Shown: positions 36,832 to 64,000 of the stretch, piece by piece
Layout of the letters: each line of letters starts with the position of its first letter
Position numbering within the stretch: position 1 is the first letter of the stretch
DNA from: Brevinematales bacterium
GTDB taxonomy: Bacteria; Spirochaetota; Brevinematia; DTOW01
Assembly: GCA_026415355.1 (NCBI GenBank)
Contig: JAOAHF010000003.1
Span: 62,001-126,000, forward strand
Direction: 5' to 3'
Length of the DNA: 64,000 bases
Notes under the pieces: generated by a model
Seen by the model: only the letters and a program-made list of their open reading frames with translations
Told to the model about the DNA's origin: nothing
The model's database searches: none
Translations under genes and position numbers: made by a program

Positions 36832-39800
36832 TCAATTAATATCTTCTGGAATAATATCTTTTGCTTCTCTAATTATCTCATCTAATGCTGCAAAATAATC
36901 TTTTTGGCCCTTTTCTACTTTATCCATTATCGCTTCTAAACTTCTTGTCCTATCTTCAGAGATAAAATCACTGTATCTGCTTTTAAGTACTTCATAAACT
37001 TTAAAACCCTTACTCATAGGTATAAGTCTGTTGTTCTTCGAGATAATATAACCTCTCTTAAGTAGCGTTGATATTATCTTTGAATATGTAGAAGGCCTAC
37101 CTATACCCTTATCTTTCATCATCTGAATTATATCACCTTCCGAAAATAAACTTACCTTTGGTTTCTTAACAGATTTAACATTCTTTATTTTCAATGAATT
37201 AGGCAATGGCTCATCTATCTGAAAATACCCCATCATATTCCACCCATTATCCACTACCTCAACATTCCTATTAACTTTTAGTTCAATATCACTTACTAAT
37301 ATAGAATATGTTACATTTTTTACAACAACAGCTTTCATCTGGGATGATATAAACCTCTTGAAAATTAAGTCATATATCAGTACATGATGTCTTTTTATAG
37401 TTGAAGTTGATATAGCACCTTCCGTTGTTAACTGATACAAAGTCTGAGCATCAATTGATTTAGTAGGCCTAATACACTCATGAGTTCCTTCTTCTTCCCA
37501 ACTTCTTGGTACATTTAGATTTTTAATATTTTTTATGGATAGGTATTCTTTTGCAACCTGTTGACCTACCAAAGAAACTTTCGTAGAATCTGTTCTGTGG
37601 TATGTAATCAAACCTTCTTCAAACAAATCCTGCAAAATATTCATAACCATATCAGAACTCATCTTATACAACCTATTTGCTTGTATGAGTATAGCATCAG
37701 TTGTAAACGGCGGTAGTGGTAGTATTTCTATCTCTTTTTCTTCGTCAATCTTTACACTCACTTCATCACCAACTTTTATATCTAACGTTTTTTTATTTCC
37801 TTCTACACTCAATACTATTTCTTCTGTAGTTTTGGAGTTACTCTCAGATAAATCTGTTGACAAAGTAATCTCAACAAAATTGGTTTTAGAATCATTATAC
37901 TGCTTAAACCTCTCTATTATCCATCCCAAAACTGGAGATTGAACTCTACCCGCTGAAATATTATCATGATTAAGCTCATCTTTAAGAATACCACTTAACC
38001 CAAAACCTATTATCCTATCTTGAACTCTTCTCAATAGTTGAGACTCAACCAAATTTATATTTATCTCTTCAGGATTTTGAATACTTCTATTTATAGCATA
38101 GTATGTAACTTCGTTAAATCTCATTCTCCTAACTTTACCATTAAAGAATTTCAGATAGGGAACTAAAAAAGAGTAAATATCGTAACTTATCTTTTCACCC
38201 TCAGTGTCAGGATCAGAAGCTAACAAAACCTCATCAACTTCTTTAGCAAGTTCTATTAAAGATCTAACATCATCTATCCTGTCACTAAACTTATCATTAC
38301 CACAATACACACATCTATTCTCACTACTTACAAACGTTTTCCTACATTTAGAACATCTCTTTATAGTATCATATACAGGTAAAGGAATCCCCTCCTTTAT
38401 TCTTATACCATATATATCTTCGTTGTCCATCGTCAATTCAAACATGTGACCTTTAGACGCAGTTATAATGAAAGTTACACTTCCGGTTGTAGTTTCATAA
38501 CAACTCAATCCTTTTATGATTCTTTCTGTTGGATTACCTAGTAATCTTGAAATTGTTTTTGCTTTAGTAGGAGACTCAACAATTATCAAAACTGTTTTAT
38601 TCAATTGTTTTATATTACTCTGCACGTTACCCTCAATCGCTAAACTAAGTTTCTCCCTATCTTCTTTCGCAACCTTTAAGTCCTCTAAAACTCTACTTTC
38701 TTCAAATTTAACCCATTCACTATCTTCAATCCATTTATACTTTCTGGATACTATCTCTAAAAGTTTATTATCTTTTTCAATTACAATAGATATCCCCTTA
38801 GTCATACCACCTATATAAAGTCTAGATGTTCTACCACTCGCTTGAAGGTAAGTATTCATATCTGGAATTACAATATAATTCCTACCATTGTAGCTCTGAA
38901 ATAAAATATCTTGAGAGTTTTTAAGTATATCTATATATTCATCTTTTGACAACAAATCCCTAAGAAGTTCATTCACTTGATTTACAATAAACTCATATTT
39001 TGAGTTGTTTTTAAGCTTAGTTATAAGACTCTGTACTTTCTTCTTTTGTTTTTCATCCTTGATATAATCAATCAATTCAGCAAGAATCTTCATCACTGTA
39101 TAACCCGATAAGTTTAAGTTATTAACGTCAACAACTACCTTAAATCTTGGTATTCCCAAAAAAACGGCATAAATAATTCTATCGGGTATATCTATACCTC
39201 TAACGAGTGTCCCGTAATATGTTGATACTCCTACTAGTATATTTATTTCCCCTTTTCTGAATTTTTTCAAAACTTCATCTCTTTTATTTGAAGAAATAAC
39301 AGCACTTTTTAGGCTAGTTTTTGAATTTATAATTTCAGAAACTTTTTCAGCATACTCAACTCCATCTTCAGTAGTAACAAAAACTATTCCACCATCTCCC
39401 ATGATACTTAACACTTTGATTAAATCTTGTTCATAATTTTCAGAAAAGATATAGTAATTGTTTATATTCCTTGTTATTTCAGTCTTACCCCCTATCTCAA
39501 AATCAAACAATTCTTTGAAAAGCTTAATTCTCACACCTTTTGGCTTAGCAGTCGCGCTAGATACTACAATTATACCTTTTTCCTTATTCTTTATACTCAA
39601 TACTCTTTCTTGTAACTTATTATAATTATCCAGATAATTCTCGTATCTTTCCTTACCTCTAGAAACTGCTAGTAAAAACTTAAGCTTTATAACTTCCAAT
39701 GTTACCTCAACATCTTCCTTTGACAAACCTGACAACATAATAACATATTCCACATTTTTCGACTTTTTAACCAAGGCATCAACATCATCAGCAAATATGA

Positions 39801-40404
39801 AATCAAATTTAATGTTTTCTCTAATAGTAAATAAATTTTTTATCATACTAGATGTTATAACTACTATATCGTAATCTTCCTTTTGTATAGCTTTCTTGAA
39901 GTTTTCTTTTTGTTTTCGAGTTATCTTTGAAGAATACATAACTATTCTAGGACTTACACCTATAGTACTTGATAGTCCCTGTAACTTTTCATAAACCTGA
40001 TTGACTAAACTAGTTGTTGGCAGTATTATTACAGATTTTTTACCTTCGGAATACAGATTAAGAGATGTCATAATACCAAAAGTAGTTTTACCTACACCAG
40101 TTGGAGCAATCAGAGAGAAACTCCTTTTGAGAATAACTCTTTTCATCCAACTAATTTGAGTATTCCAAGGTTCTGAATTTACGGCTTTTTTGAAATTATT
40201 TATCCATTTTTCAAGAATATCCTTAACATACAGTATTTCACTAAGATTACCACTAACTCCTATCTGTCTAAATACTTTTTCAATATTTTCATCTAGTCCA
40301 TTTTTATAGCATCTTTCACAAACACCTATGCTTATAAGTCTATCATCAGTTATCTCACTTCCACACGATACACAACCTCTCAAATAAATACTATGCGCTC
40401 TCAT
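36832..40404 (-). CDS. rgy: Reverse gyrase
   Basis: Single-chain reverse gyrase (1190 residues): a helicase fused to a type IA topoisomerase that introduces positive supercoils into DNA. From the start: an N-terminal zinc finger (Cys11, Cys14, Cys29, Cys32), the helicase Walker A APTGVGKTT at about 100-108, Walker B as ADDVD instead of DEAD, and the second helicase domain ending with QASGRTSRLYIGG. The topoisomerase half starts with the Toprim motif VLIIVESPTKAKT at about 605 and includes a second four-cysteine zinc finger, then SDPDTEGEKISYD, AGRVQSPVLG and the catalytic tyrosine region ITYHRTDS near 933. No intein and no gaps were seen. It is found almost only in hyperthermophiles and thermophiles, so it is a strong marker here. 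Confidence 0.97.
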   Translation of the reverse strand: MRAHSIYLRGCVSCGSEITDDRLISIGVCERCYKNGLDENIEKVFRQIGVSGNLSEILYVKDILEKWINNFKKAVNSEPWNTQISWMKRVILKRSFSLIAPTGVGKTTFGIMTSLNLYSEGKKSVIILPTTSLVNQVYEKLQGLSSTIGVSPRIVMYSSKITRKQKENFKKAIQKEDYDIVVITSSMIKNLFTIRENIKFDFIFADDVDALVKKSKNVEYVIMLSGLSKEDVEVTLEVIKLKFLLAVSRGKERYENYLDNYNKLQERVLSIKNKEKGIIVVSSATAKPKGVRIKLFKELFDFEIGGKTEITRNINNYYIFSENYEQDLIKVLSIMGDGGIVFVTTEDGVEYAEKVSEIINSKTSLKSAVISSNKRDEVLKKFRKGEINILVGVSTYYGTLVRGIDIPDRIIYAVFLGIPRFKVVVDVNNLNLSGYTVMKILAELIDYIKDEKQKKKVQSLITKLKNNSKYEFIVNQVNELLRDLLSKDEYIDILKNSQDILFQSYNGRNYIVIPDMNTYLQASGRTSRLYIGGMTKGISIVIEKDNKLLEIVSRKYKWIEDSEWVKFEESRVLEDLKVAKEDREKLSLAIEGNVQSNIKQLNKTVLIIVESPTKAKTISRLLGNPTERIIKGLSCYETTTGSVTFIITASKGHMFELTMDNEDIYGIRIKEGIPLPVYDTIKRCSKCRKTFVSSENRCVYCGNDKFSDRIDDVRSLIELAKEVDEVLLASDPDTEGEKISYDIYSFLVPYLKFFNGKVRRMRFNEVTYYAINRSIQNPEEININLVESQLLRRVQDRIIGFGLSGILKDELNHDNISAGRVQSPVLGWIIERFKQYNDSKTNFVEITLSTDLSESNSKTTEEIVLSVEGNKKTLDIKVGDEVSVKIDEEKEIEILPLPPFTTDAILIQANRLYKMSSDMVMNILQDLFEEGLITYHRTDSTKVSLVGQQVAKEYLSIKNIKNLNVPRSWEEEGTHECIRPTKSIDAQTLYQLTTEGAISTSTIKRHHVLIYDLIFKRFISSQMKAVVVKNVTYSILVSDIELKVNRNVEVVDNGWNMMGYFQIDEPLPNSLKIKNVKSVKKPKVSLFSEGDIIQMMKDKGIGRPSTYSKIISTLLKRGYIISKNNRLIPMSKGFKVYEVLKSRYSDFISEDRTRSLEAIMDKVEKGQKDYFAALDEIIREAKDIIPEDIN

Positions 40405-40603: not shown

Positions 40604-41371
40604 ATGGGTAAATGTATAGCAGTTGCTAATCAAAAAGGTGGAGTTGGCAAGACTACAACCGTTATAAACATATCCCATTATATCGCAAGTAGGGGATACA
40701 AGGTATTAGATATTGATATTGATCCGCAAGGTAATTTAGGCAGAGGACTTGGCATAGAGTTATCTCAAACTAGAAGAGGCACATATGAAGCCCTAATAAA
40801 CCAAGAAGATCCTAATGACTTAGTCATACCTTCAAAATATGACAATCTATTCATATTACCCGCAAATATGCAGCTTGCTGGAGCTCAAGTTGAATTACTC
40901 GACCTTAATGATAAAGAACATAGGCTAAAAAACTTTATACTTGAAGTAAAGGATCACTTTGATTTTATCTTCATTGATACTCCTCCATCACTTGGTATCT
41001 TAACTATAAATGGATTAGTAGCTGCTGACAGTGTAATGATACCATTACAAGCAGAATTCTTTGCAATGGAAGGATTAGTACAACTTATGAAAACAATAAA
41101 ATCCATTCAAAAATCTCTAAATACAAGTTTAGAGATAGAAGGAGTACTACTTACAATGTATGACATAAGAACAAAGTTATCAAAGGACGTAGCAGAACAA
41201 GCAAAAGATTATTTCAAAGATAAGGTATACAACACTTTTATACCTAGAAACGTGAGGCTTTCAGAAGCACCAAGCTATGGAAAGTCCATATTTGACTATG
41301 ATCCAACCTGTCCAGGTGCAATTGCTTATCAAAAAGTTTCAGAAGAGATATTGATTAAATATAAACCTTAG
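40604..41371 (+). CDS. parA: Chromosome partitioning ATPase ParA (Soj)
   Basis: Walker-type ATPase that moves ParB-parS complexes along the nucleoid. The deviant Walker A is KGGVGKTTT at about 11-19, with the signature lysine ahead of the GK. Walker A' and B features follow: DIDPQGNLGRGLG and FIFIDTPPSLGILTINGL. At 255 residues it lacks the long N-terminal helix-turn-helix of plasmid type Ia ParA and fits the chromosomal Soj type. AGGGAGG is a good ribosome binding site. It is 10 bp upstream of parB. It diverges from reverse gyrase; the 200-bp region between them shows no clear promoter boxes. Confidence 0.95.
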   Translation: MGKCIAVANQKGGVGKTTTVINISHYIASRGYKVLDIDIDPQGNLGRGLGIELSQTRRGTYEALINQEDPNDLVIPSKYDNLFILPANMQLAGAQVELLDLNDKEHRLKNFILEVKDHFDFIFIDTPPSLGILTINGLVAADSVMIPLQAEFFAMEGLVQLMKTIKSIQKSLNTSLEIEGVLLTMYDIRTKLSKDVAEQAKDYFKDKVYNTFIPRNVRLSEAPSYGKSIFDYDPTCPGAIAYQKVSEEILIKYKP

Positions 41372-41381
41372 GAGGAACAAC

Positions 41382-42278
41382 ATGAAAGAGAGAGGACTTG
41401 GTAAAGGTTTAAAATCTCTACTTGAAGATTTTGATTTAACAGAGAACTCAGGCGTCAAGAATGTTAGTATTACAAGTTTAAAACCAAACCCGAATCAACC
41501 TAGAAAAGTATTTAATGAGACAACTTTAAAAGAATTGGCTGATTCCATCAAAGAGAAAGGAATTTTACAACCAATAGTAGTTAGAGAAAAAGGCAATTAC
41601 TATGAGATAATTGCTGGAGAAAGACGTTGGAGAGCAGCACAGATGGCAGGCCTTACAGAGGTACCTATAGTTATAAGGAACGATATAAGCGATGTTGAGA
41701 GTCTAGAATTAGCACTAATAGAAAATATTCAAAGAGAAGACCTTAATCCTATTGACTTAGCAAATGCATACAACGAACTAATTGAAAAATATAATTTATC
41801 TCAAGAAGAATTATCAAAAATAGTAGGAAAAAGCAGATCCGCAATTGCGAATACTTTGAGATTACTTAAACTTCCTAACAAAGTTAAAGAATATATTGTT
41901 CAAGGAATTCTATCAGAAGGGCATGGCAGAGCTTTATTATCGCTAGATAGCGAAAAAGAAATACTAGAATTAGCAAAAGAATGTATAGAGAAAAATCTAT
42001 CAGTAAGAGAAGTTGAAGAAATTGTTAGTTTTCGCAAAAATGAAAAACTCTACAAAGAAACAACACAAATAGTTTCACATGAAACAAAAAAATCTTCTTT
42101 AAATAGAAGTACTGAAATAAAAAACATAGAAGAAGACTTAATCGAATCTTTAGGTACAAAAGTTTCTGTACTAGGAAACTTTGAAAAAGGGAAAATAATT
42201 ATAAACTATTATTCCAGAGAGGATTTAGAAAGAATCTACGATATTATAGTAAACAAAAAACCATCATCACAGTACTAA
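41382..42278 (+). CDS. parB: Chromosome partitioning protein ParB (Spo0J)
   Basis: ParB CTPase that binds parS and spreads along DNA to form the partition complex. The N-terminal ParB domain (about 25-115) contains the CTP-binding GERRWRAA motif and ENIQREDLNPIDLANAY. The middle KorB-type helix-turn-helix (about 125-210) has LSQEELSKIVGKSRSAIANTLRLLKL. The C-terminal dimerisation domain ends near 298. A parS-like site lies within the gene at 42071-42086 and another follows at 42286-42301. AGGAGG supports the ATG. Confidence 0.95.
   Translation: MKERGLGKGLKSLLEDFDLTENSGVKNVSITSLKPNPNQPRKVFNETTLKELADSIKEKGILQPIVVREKGNYYEIIAGERRWRAAQMAGLTEVPIVIRNDISDVESLELALIENIQREDLNPIDLANAYNELIEKYNLSQEELSKIVGKSRSAIANTLRLLKLPNKVKEYIVQGILSEGHGRALLSLDSEKEILELAKECIEKNLSVREVEEIVSFRKNEKLYKETTQIVSHETKKSSLNRSTEIKNIEEDLIESLGTKVSVLGNFEKGKIIINYYSREDLERIYDIIVNKKPSSQY
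42071..42086. promoter_or_regulatory. parS-like site inside parB
   Basis: AGTTTCACATGAAACA matches the bacterial parS consensus (TGTTNCACGTGAAACA) except for the first base and the centre CATG in place of CGTG. It encodes part of ParB (IVSHETK). In Bacillus subtilis a parS site also lies inside spo0J. Confidence 0.7.
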
Positions 42279-42285
42279 AAAAATA

Positions 42286-42301
42286 TGTTTCACATGAAAC
42301 A
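42286..42301. promoter_or_regulatory. parS-like site downstream of parB
   Basis: TGTTTCACATGAAACA, one base from the parS consensus. It shares 15 consecutive bases with the site inside parB, 215 bp away. It lies 8 bp after the parB stop. Confidence 0.8.
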
Positions 42302-61192: not shown

Positions 61193-62590
61193 ATGAGAGT
61201 GTTTATTGTTATACTGGTTTCTACTTTTTCTTTTATATTGGTTGGATGTGATTTTTACACAATGTACTTCATAAAGAAGTCTCTTGAAGAGGATTTCGGG
61301 TATGTCGATATGTTTTCTAGAAAGTACCAACTCAAAGGGGATAGTATCTCAGATGTCCCAATTTCTGATGAAGAGAAGATATTACCGGAATTCGTTGAAG
61401 ACAAGATACGTCTCCTTGAGGATGAGAGAAACATGTTTCCTGGAAGTAAGGAAAAACCTGTATCCGTTACGTCTATATTTTCTACTAAGGGACAAAAGTT
61501 TACGATCCAATTACCGAGTGAGGATGGAATATGGCTTGTGAAAAAGTACCCTCTTAAAGTTGCGTTTCTCGATGGAACTTCTAGGGTAAGAGATAATGTA
61601 TTCATATTTACTACCAGAGATTACGGTAAAGATAACATCATATTTCAGCTTTTTTCTAGTAATGGTACAGTCATAAAAACTCTCGAATATGAAGTAACTT
61701 CAGTTGAAGCTTTTAGTGATAAGGCTACTAACTCTCAAGGAGTCATCTCAATTACTAACGGTGGTATAATGTTTGGTACTTCTCGAAAGGCCAACTTATC
61801 TGGAGACAGTAATGCTGGCAAATCAAACAATTACAGTTTCTCGAGTACGAATGATTTTGGTAATATACTGCTTGCCAATTCTGCCTCATACGATATTACA
61901 GATAACGAGAGAGAGAGTACCGAGCAAAGCACCGAATTAGGTCCCCCATCGAATGTTGGTAAGCTTGACCTTAAGTTTCTTGTTGGTGATGAGGAGAAGT
62001 TCTTTGAAAACATAGACAACATAGCAAGCAAGTATGGGTATTATAGAGCTATTAAGGAAATAGAGAACTTGGAGTCTAACGTATCTAGAGACGACTTACC
62101 TAAGCTCAAGCTAAAAAAAATGGAATTCTTAGGCAGGCTTAATAAGTTTTCTGATGCTATAAAGGAAGGTGAGGAATTTGCTGACAAGGATAGTATCATA
62201 AAACTTTACACGGGTATATTTTTTGGGAAGTCTAAAAACTACTCAATGGCTGATAAGAACATAAGAGAATCTCTTGCAAGGATAACAAATCCAAGAGAGC
62301 TATCATTCGCACTAAGAGAAATACTAGCTTACTATTCATCTGTTCCTGAGCCTCCTACGAGGGAAATGATTAATATTATCCTGCAGAGGAATGAGATAAT
62401 TCTGAAAGACTTTAAGAGAGAGTACTACGAAAATCTCGTGGCATTAGGAGAACTATTCGAGAGAATAGGTGAAGTTTACAAGGCAATGTCAATATACGAG
62501 AATGTTTGCAATTCTGATGTGGGTGAAGATATAAAAAACTTTGCTTCATCAAAGAAAGACAGGTTAAATAAGTTAATAAACTTTAGGTAG
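61193..62590 (+). CDS. Lipoprotein with C-terminal TPR-like helices
   Basis: A 465-residue lipoprotein. The signal runs from the ATG at 61193 (MRVFIVILVSTFSFILVGC) with the lipobox ILVGC, so Cys19 would be lipidated; earlier ATGs at 61121 and 61187 are less likely. The N-terminal half is beta-rich, followed by a Ser/Asn-rich linker (about 180-240). The C-terminal half has helix pairs (FENIDNIASKYGYYRAIKEIENLES, FADKDSIIKLYTGIFFGKSKNYSMADK) of the TPR kind. It is divergent from ylxP (130-bp gap). No family name can be given. Confidence 0.65.
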   Translation: MRVFIVILVSTFSFILVGCDFYTMYFIKKSLEEDFGYVDMFSRKYQLKGDSISDVPISDEEKILPEFVEDKIRLLEDERNMFPGSKEKPVSVTSIFSTKGQKFTIQLPSEDGIWLVKKYPLKVAFLDGTSRVRDNVFIFTTRDYGKDNIIFQLFSSNGTVIKTLEYEVTSVEAFSDKATNSQGVISITNGGIMFGTSRKANLSGDSNAGKSNNYSFSSTNDFGNILLANSASYDITDNERESTEQSTELGPPSNVGKLDLKFLVGDEEKFFENIDNIASKYGYYRAIKEIENLESNVSRDDLPKLKLKKMEFLGRLNKFSDAIKEGEEFADKDSIIKLYTGIFFGKSKNYSMADKNIRESLARITNPRELSFALREILAYYSSVPEPPTREMINIILQRNEIILKDFKREYYENLVALGELFERIGEVYKAMSIYENVCNSDVGEDIKNFASSKKDRLNKLINFR

Positions 62591-62790
62591 CTTTTGACTA
62601 GTGAGGTCATTGTTGTGACGTGTTTCATGATATTGATAAACATTGAATTTTTAGCGAGGGAATCTTATTCATCATTTCAGCCGTAATTCGGTAATTTGTT
62701 TTGTGGTATGTAATGTACTGATAGTGTTATTACTTCAATATTATTATTTATTATTTTTATTATTATCATTGTTTTAGAGGTGCAAATTTA

Positions 62791-63267
62791 TACCAAAATC
62801 CGTTGGTAAAAATGTAACACTTACTAGGTTTTATGCCTTGAGGCGATAACGCACAATTTTGTGCATTTAATGTGCATTTAATGTGCATAGCTCTGTGCAT
62901 TGTGCATTTTGACGCACAATTTTAGAAAAATTATGTTAACTTTGTGCGTTTAGAAAAATTTTTGATACCAAAATGTTTTGAAGAAATTGCTCAAAAAGCT
63001 TTTCCTATAGGCTATAACAACAATGCACATTTTGTGCATTTGATTGTGCATGCATACCCCAAAACATTTTGGTTTTTGACGCGAGAAAATCTTTTTTAAA
63101 GCCTTATAGCAACTATGCACAAAGAGAAATTTTTTTTAAAGATAAATTTACCAAAATTTATTGGTATTTTCTTATTCTAGATAGCTTTTTAAGAGACTAG
63201 ACCAAACACGCACATTTTGTGCGTTGTCTAAATAGTGCTAAAATAAAGCCAAGTTGAATACCAAAAT
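62791..63267. repeat. TACCAAAAT / TACCAA-N6-TTGGTA repeats
   Basis: TACCAAAAT occurs at 62791-62799, 62966-62974, 63149-63157 and 63259-63267. At two of these it is half of an 18-bp palindrome, TACCAA-N6-TTGGTA (62791-62808 and 63149-63166). A related palindrome, CCAAAA-CA-TTTTGG, is at 63059-63072. Confidence 0.75.
62851..63224. repeat. Cluster of TGTGCA(T/G) half-sites and palindromes
   Basis: About 13 copies of the TGTGC(A/G) element or its complement lie in 374 bp. Perfect palindromes: GCACAA-TT-TTGTGC (62851-62864), AATGCACA-TTT-TGTGCATT (63022-63040) and ACGCACA-TTT-TGTGCGT (63208-63224). Four direct copies of TGTGCAT are at 62871, 62882, 62894 and 62901. ACGCACAA and TTGTGCGT pair at 62912-62919 and 62942-62949. 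Single copies are at 63045 and 63115. Confidence 0.8.
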
Positions 63268-63457
63268 ATTTCTTAATTATATAAGACTAATTTAGTTAGA
63301 ATTATCAAATAGATAAAATGTTGTGTGTGAAAGATAGTATGGCTTACATAAACTTAAAGTGTGAAAGAAAAGTTTTATACTAGATTGTCAAATATGAAGT
63401 ATTTTTGAAATGATGTTAGAGTTATATTAATAATTCTAGTCAAATCGGAGGTAGAAG

Positions 63458-64000
63458 ATGAGCATTTCTTTTGACAGTTTACCTATTTCAGATGTATCTA
63501 AGAGAAACATGCAGGATATGATTAGAGAGTTTGGAAGAGAAGTAGAAGATGAGATTATTATGCTTATTAACCAGAAAAAGTTTGACGAGATAGAGGATAG
63601 ATTTTACAAGAAACTTGAGTTTGGAACTGGTGGTATGAGGGGTAAGGTGGGTATCGGAACTAATAGGATAAACAAATACACTATACATACTGCTACTCAA
63701 GGTTTTGCCAATTATCTTAAAAAGGTGAAAGGAAGCAAGAATTTGTCTTGTGTCATAGGATATGATACAAGAAAGGATTCTCGCAGTTTAGCGATAGAGG
63801 CTGCTAGAGTTTTAGTTGGCAATGGTATAAGAACGTATCTAATTAAAATACCGATGCCAACGCCTTTTATTTCATTTGCGATAAGGTACTTAAAGGCATC
63901 AGGAGGAGTGATATTAACAGCATCTCATAATCCACCTAATTACAATGGTTATAAAGTTTACTGGGATGATGGAGCTCAAGTAGTAGCACCACACGACAAG
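63458..64000 (+). CDS. Phosphohexomutase (phosphoglucomutase/phosphomannomutase), N-terminal part
   Basis: First 181 residues of an alpha-D-phosphohexomutase, cut by the window end. It shows EFGTGGMRGKVGIGTNRIN at about 54-72, VIGYDTRKDSR at about 99-109, and the catalytic phosphoserine loop TASHNPPNYNGYK with Ser156. The early EFGTGGMRG segment fits the PGM2/phosphopentomutase-like branch that also acts on glucose 1-phosphate. CGGAGGT at 63446-63452 supports the ATG. The substrate cannot be told from the N-terminal half. The repeat field lies upstream and may control it. Confidence 0.9.
   Translation, partial: MSISFDSLPISDVSKRNMQDMIREFGREVEDEIIMLINQKKFDEIEDRFYKKLEFGTGGMRGKVGIGTNRINKYTIHTATQGFANYLKKVKGSKNLSCVIGYDTRKDSRSLAIEAARVLVGNGIRTYLIKIPMPTPFISFAIRYLKASGGVILTASHNPPNYNGYKVYWDDGAQVVAPHDK

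Follow-up and report, generated by a model that had tools for sequence, protein, structure and literature searches.

An intergenic element at approximately positions 62727–63275 of the window, the 64,000-nucleotide stretch of Brevinematales DNA that was analysed, is very probably the origin of replication (oriC), in which DnaA would act on a set of boxes to open an adjoining AT-rich stretch and a second, dimeric protein would occupy five palindromes, P1–P5. What the sequence shows directly is how the element is laid out, that it is conserved and occurs once per genome, that weak DNA adjoins it, and that it lies at the GC-skew minimum. The comparison covered five genomes, namely the source genome (G000, 1.76 Mb), three of the same genus (G001, G002, and G003), and one of a sister genus in the same family (G004). 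All five are draft, MAG-like assemblies, so that skew is visible per contig only, and stability, too, was assessed contig by contig. Three contigs (C2 and C3 of G000, C1 of G003) were covered almost in full, and the remaining genome sequence by pattern only. The element-bearing contig of G000 is C3, which is 143 kb long, its position 124727 being window position 62727. The window also encodes a reverse gyrase (36832–40404, minus strand; TIGR01054, 1146 bits with a cut-off of 472), which makes a thermophilic organism probable.

The original prediction of at least 13 TGTGC(A/G) half-sites in less than 400 bp without a gene is borne out, as 14 YGCACA/TGTGCR sites were counted at 62850–63224 (approximately 370 bp) in a gene-free gap of 867 bp, which extends from the end of one ORF at 62590 to the start of the next at 63458. 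The gap is bordered by a lipoprotein-like ORF and a phosphohexomutase gene, the element lying upstream of the latter. Across the 64-kb window, TGTGCA itself is present at about the chance level (15 copies seen, 14.2 expected from shuffling), and nine of the 15 copies are inside the gap. Counted per 400 bp, the gap contains 14 TGTGCR sites, and no equal density was found on the two long contigs, since the next best interval of the 143-kb contig and the best of a second contig of 144 kb contain two each; the Poisson probability of the 14-site density is approximately 1e-30 at the contig background rate. The several palindromes described for this region were likewise recovered: GCACA-N0-6-TGTGC occurs at seven places in the 1.76-Mb genome, three of them within the element, and the reversed control pattern at none. 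A search of the gap against Rfam gave no match to an RNA element.

The element starts with an AT-rich stretch of TTA/TAT repeats (62727–62780), a putative DNA unwinding element that holds the least stable 40-mer of the 143-kb contig. A second palindrome, ACCAAAATATTTTGGT-like and absent from the original prediction, is present in five copies between the TGTGCR groups, and the two motifs follow each other in the order P1-B1-P2-B2-P3-B3-P4-B4-P5. P1 (ACCAAAATCCGTTGGT, 62792–62807) matches ACCAAAATATTTTGGT at 13 of 16 positions and has a counterpart at the same place in G001 and G003. The putative DnaA boxes of cluster B1 (62850–62906) comprise an inverted pair, GCACAATTTTGTGC, and then head-to-tail TGTGCA sites at 62860, 62871, 62882, 62894, and 62901, with spacings of 11, 11, 12, and 7. 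Relative to the weak stretch, these boxes run in the direction of box R1 of E. coli, and a direct array adjoining the AT-rich stretch is also present in G003, G001, and, partly seen, G002. A single putative DnaA box in the opposite orientation follows (CGCACA, 62913–62918, minus strand), together with the block AAATTATGTTAACTTTGTGCGT (62928–62949, plus strand), which has a putative DnaA box as its end (62943) and is near-identical across the four genomes of the genus, without conservation in the sister genus. At these same positions, AAATTATGTTAACTTTGTGC hardly varies within the genus and exceeds the length needed for a DnaA box, and an additional protein may bind there. P2 (ACCAAAATGTTTTGAA, 62967–62982) is followed by cluster B2 (63023–63051), made up of the inverted pair ATGCACATTTTGTGCAT and TGTGCAT at 63045, and P3 (CCCAAAACATTTTGGT, 63058–63073) by B3, a single putative DnaA box (TATGCACA, 63115–63121, minus strand) matched by a single box at the corresponding place in G001, G002, and G003. 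P4 (ACCAAAATTTATTGGT, 63150–63165) precedes B4, an inverted pair (ACGCACATTTTGTGCGT, 63208–63224) that is the same in 4/4 genomes of the genus, and P5 (ACCAAAATATTTCTTA, 63260–63275) is half preserved here and whole in G002 and G003. No clear DnaA-trio run was assigned in the element.

One palindrome cluster was found per genome, in the four genomes of the genus and in the sister genus alike (5/5, the assemblies being incomplete). Conservation in relatives, which had been proposed as a check, is lacking at the phosphohexomutase position and present for the element itself, which is kept at another locus in each relative: C1:206.0–206.45 kb in G003, flanked by a fliS-like gene; C30:16.6–17.1 kb in G001; C85:8.28–8.69 kb in G002, where it is interrupted by the contig end and flanked by a fliM-like gene; and C61:1.04–1.66 kb in G004, flanked by a xerC/D-like recombinase gene (the fliS-, fliM-, and xerC/D-like calls being made from translations without a profile test). 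The flanking genes are unrelated, and a common layout is shared by all five genomes, consisting of an AT-rich stretch, head-to-tail TGTGCR sites approximately 11 bp apart, and then inverted pairs. Within the genus, the order from P1 to P5 is held, with P spacings of 175/91/92/110 in G000, 174/93/104/110 in G003, 164/91/102/109 in G001, and -/92/93/110 in G002. In the three-way comparison of G000, G001, and G003, identical columns amount to 78% in the P sites, 70% in the boxes, 30% elsewhere in the element, and 14%–20% in the flanks, and in a circular-shift test the observed site conservation was reached by one of 494 shifts. Conservation of the P and box columns above their surroundings thus suggests the footprint of bound sites, independent of the neighboring genes. 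Thirteen genomes from more remote families of the class lack the P motif apart from one isolated match.

Locus C83 of G004, which the palindrome search had offered as the counterpart, proved to be a different repeat, the true counterpart being on C61. Short GCACA-N-TGTGC palindromes, mostly GCACANTGTGC, are scattered at 37 places in G004 (control pattern, two) and seem to be a dispersed repeat of another kind. The order of genes near the origin (C3 of G000 and C1 of G003) is strongly rearranged within the genus, single operons and parAB remaining in the region.

The boxes of the sister genus include TTATGCACA, the canonical DnaA box, which fits the general box TTATNCACA, and the sole tandem pair of the form TTATNCACA-N0-30-TTATNCACA in the five genomes lies inside the G004 element. 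The boxes of the genus read NNAYGCACA, departing from TTATNCACA at positions 1 and 2 and often at position 4. They were surveyed at 70 sites in the five genomes with GCACA as the query core, so the invariance of that core is fixed by construction and information comes from the flanks only. T stands at position 4 in 15/16 sites of G004, 9/14 of G000, 3/11 of G002, 3/14 of G001, and 0/15 of G003, the remainder having C with few exceptions; A predominates at position 3, and positions 1 and 2 are free in the genus. The DnaA protein is a clear member of its family (TIGR00362, 429 bits), and its domain IV reads GKVHSTA(V/M)RA where that of E. coli reads GGRDHTTVLHA, helix 5 being KVHSTA versus RDHTTV. 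R432, D433, T435, and H439 are replaced, P423 is changed to S, and H434 is kept; these positions are known to contact bases (PMC5043019). The altered reading helix and the altered box fit together as judged from these alignments, and TGTGCR/YGCACA would be a lineage-specific variant of the DnaA box. The boxes TTATGCACA, NNATGCACA, and NNACGCACA form a natural series of box drift alongside the changes in the reading helix of DnaA. In other families of the class, DnaA has GGKAHTTV or GKSHSTV. None of the 18 genomes of the class that were seen retains the Asp of the DnaA signature RDHTT, the motif reading KAHTT, KSHST, KVHST, or RTHST.

DNA stability was calculated from nearest-neighbor energies over 40-mers, with the whole contig ranked. 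In 4/4 contigs, the 40-mer of lowest stability overall lies next to the element (143 kb in G000, 278 kb in G003, 29 kb in G001, and 6.5 kb in G004); with 60-mers, the AT-rich stretch ranks first in three contigs and third in that of G000. This stretch adjoins the box cluster and lies outside it. The GC-skew check that had been suggested for an origin also turned out in its favor: cumulative skew, taken per contig, falls and then rises, with its turn 4.1 kb from the element in G000 (minimum at window 58647, contig 120647) and 2.4 kb in G001, and the element of G003 lies on a flat skew bottom, a broad plateau at 176–236 kb whose lowest point, at 181 kb, is 25 kb off. The dnaA gene is on contig C2, behind nusB, and does not adjoin the element, although such adjacency is common, if not required, for a bacterial oriC; the skew of C2 falls steadily over 144 kb without a turn, which argues that dnaA does not mark the origin. 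A P-motif match beside dnaA (C2:26771) was considered as a dnaA-promoter site and rejected, as it falls in the coding 3′ end of nusB, where the conserved protein end KNQxI accounts for it. The parA-parB genes (40604–42278, plus strand) lie approximately 21 kb from the element, and approximately 30 kb from it in G003. The parB product belongs to the ParB family (TIGR00180, 193 bits with a cut-off of 58), and that of parA is a ParA-type ATPase whose matches are below the equivalog cut-offs. Two parS-like sites, AGTTTCACATGAAACA (42071–42086) and TGTTTCACATGAAACA (42286–42301), differ from parS TGTTTCACGTGAAACA by two mismatches and one mismatch, respectively; they lie by parB, and no match to TGTTTCACGTGAAACA is present within the element. 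The mnmG gene is 28 kb from the element. No published origin for Brevinematales came up in a literature search.

The element resembles oriC of E. coli and B. subtilis in being an intergenic box cluster with direct boxes aimed at a weak AT-rich stretch outside the cluster, present once per chromosome at the skew minimum with parAB nearby (PMC4285127). It differs from them in the boxes of the genus (NNAYGCACA, not TTATNCACA), in having dnaA elsewhere, and in a second palindrome interspersed at fixed spacing with the box groups. Among spirochetes, oriC adjoins dnaA in Borrelia burgdorferi and Brachyspira (PMC9879097; PMC2897892), whereas here dnaA is on another contig; DnaA of Borrelia has also been reported to differ at base-contacting residues, its box being unknown (PMC9879097). 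A lineage-fixed base at position 5 together with changes in DnaA helix 5 is shared with the DnaA boxes of epsilonproteobacteria (PMC5043019), in which, however, position 5 is T (TTCACA), while here it is G (GCACA) in 70/70 sites, GCACA being the search core. CtrA, Spo0A, AdpA, and HP1021 are similar in having transcription-factor sites within the origin and further ones at promoters (PMC4285127), but their sites overlap DnaA boxes, whereas P1–P5 lie between boxes, and the P motif matches none of their motifs.

Outside the origin, few P sites were found at ≤1 mismatch in the five genomes. ACCAAAATATTTTGGT lies ahead of a secreted GH13 alpha-amylase gene in 5/5 genomes, with ≤1 mismatch in G000 (C1:62398), G003 (C2:32924), G002 (C154:3960), and G004 (C66:9934) and with two mismatches in G001 (C60), and the palindrome together with GTGCA sites also precedes a CBM48-bearing amylase in G000 and G004. 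At the amylase promoters, it is accompanied by three to five GTGCA sites 10–11 bp apart, the chance of ≥4 GTGCA in 320 bp being approximately 4e-5. The P motif was found both in the putative oriC and at amylase promoters, as it might be under a transcription-factor overlay of the CtrA/AdpA type. The amylase sites read DGTGCA[A/T] versus TGTGC[A/G]T at the origin, and in G003, where 15/15 origin sites are CGCACA, none of the amylase sites is of the YGCACA type; they therefore need not be DnaA boxes. In the G000 amylase promoter, the palindrome precedes a TTGACA hexamer by 23 bp, as would suit the binding site of an activator. Among the genes adjoining P sites at ≤1 mismatch, no evident regulator was found except a response-regulator/PilZ-like ORF upstream of the G000 amylase gene. 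Two further P sites, 149 bp apart, lie near uncharacterised genes in G001. The palindrome is also present in near-identical DNA flanking CRISPR arrays (repeat GTTTCAATCCCTGAAAGGGTAGGTAAAAAC) at G000:C6:24516–24693, G003:C18:467, and the contig ends of C13 and C107 in G001, with a GGAAACCCCTGGGGGTTTCC inverted repeat nearby.

Two other readings would account for the dense sites and are each very unlikely. A locus for DnaA titration or reactivation, of the E. coli datA/DARS type and away from the true origin, would be expected as a dense, gene-free box cluster with dnaA not adjacent to it; it is at odds with the weakest DNA of the contig adjoining the element in four genomes, with the position at the skew minimum, and with the canonical tandem box pair, which is found nowhere outside the element in the five genomes. 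Since GTGCA clusters and the P palindrome precede the alpha-amylase gene in 5/5 genomes and the CBM48 amylase in two, the TGTGCR sites could belong to a protein other than DnaA, and the element could be a decoy or sponge array for GTGCA-binding and P-binding regulators of secreted amylase genes. There is little chance of this either, as the two site types differ, with no overlap in G003, and both the weak DNA and the skew minimum would be left unexplained.

The remaining readings had been named in the original prediction, and each has a probability close to nil. A cooperative operator for the neighboring phosphohexomutase or lipoprotein gene would agree with the position upstream of the phosphohexomutase gene in G000; the upstream regions of that gene in G001–G004 have no such sites, and the element of the relatives stands beside fliS, xerC/D-like, and other genes. 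Repeated sites near parAB would also be seen at a partition (centromere) site or at the iteron origin of an integrated plasmid, but the parS-like sites are by parB, 21 kb away, the element contains no gene, no replication initiator gene was found adjoining it, and it is vertically conserved across two genera. From the suggestion of a replication or partition locus, then, the replication origin is strongly supported, while partition is dropped.

For the element as oriC, the general mechanism of model origins would have DnaA fill the boxes and form a filament on the direct array B1, which points at the AT-rich stretch, and this filament would melt the stretch for helicase loading. DnaA binding, unwinding, and the action of the P-binding protein are predictions from the site layout. 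The candidate dimeric protein on P1–P5 would probably hold or block the box groups and thereby regulate origin use or shape the origin DNA; as the P sites lie between the boxes and not on them, bending, wrapping, or contacts with DnaA appear more probable than mere competition. The presence of this palindrome at amylase promoters suggests the hypothesis that the P-binding protein reports carbohydrate supply, which we regard as less likely than not. A regulator of starch use on five phased P sites that lets food supply license or block initiation, at an origin with which the DnaA site has changed in step, is offered as a tentative scheme. For this family of uncultured thermophiles, the element provides a probable origin where a search with the standard box consensus and the rule that oriC lies by dnaA would both fail, and, through the palindrome common to the origin and the amylase promoters, a coupling of replication start to nutrient use becomes directly testable.
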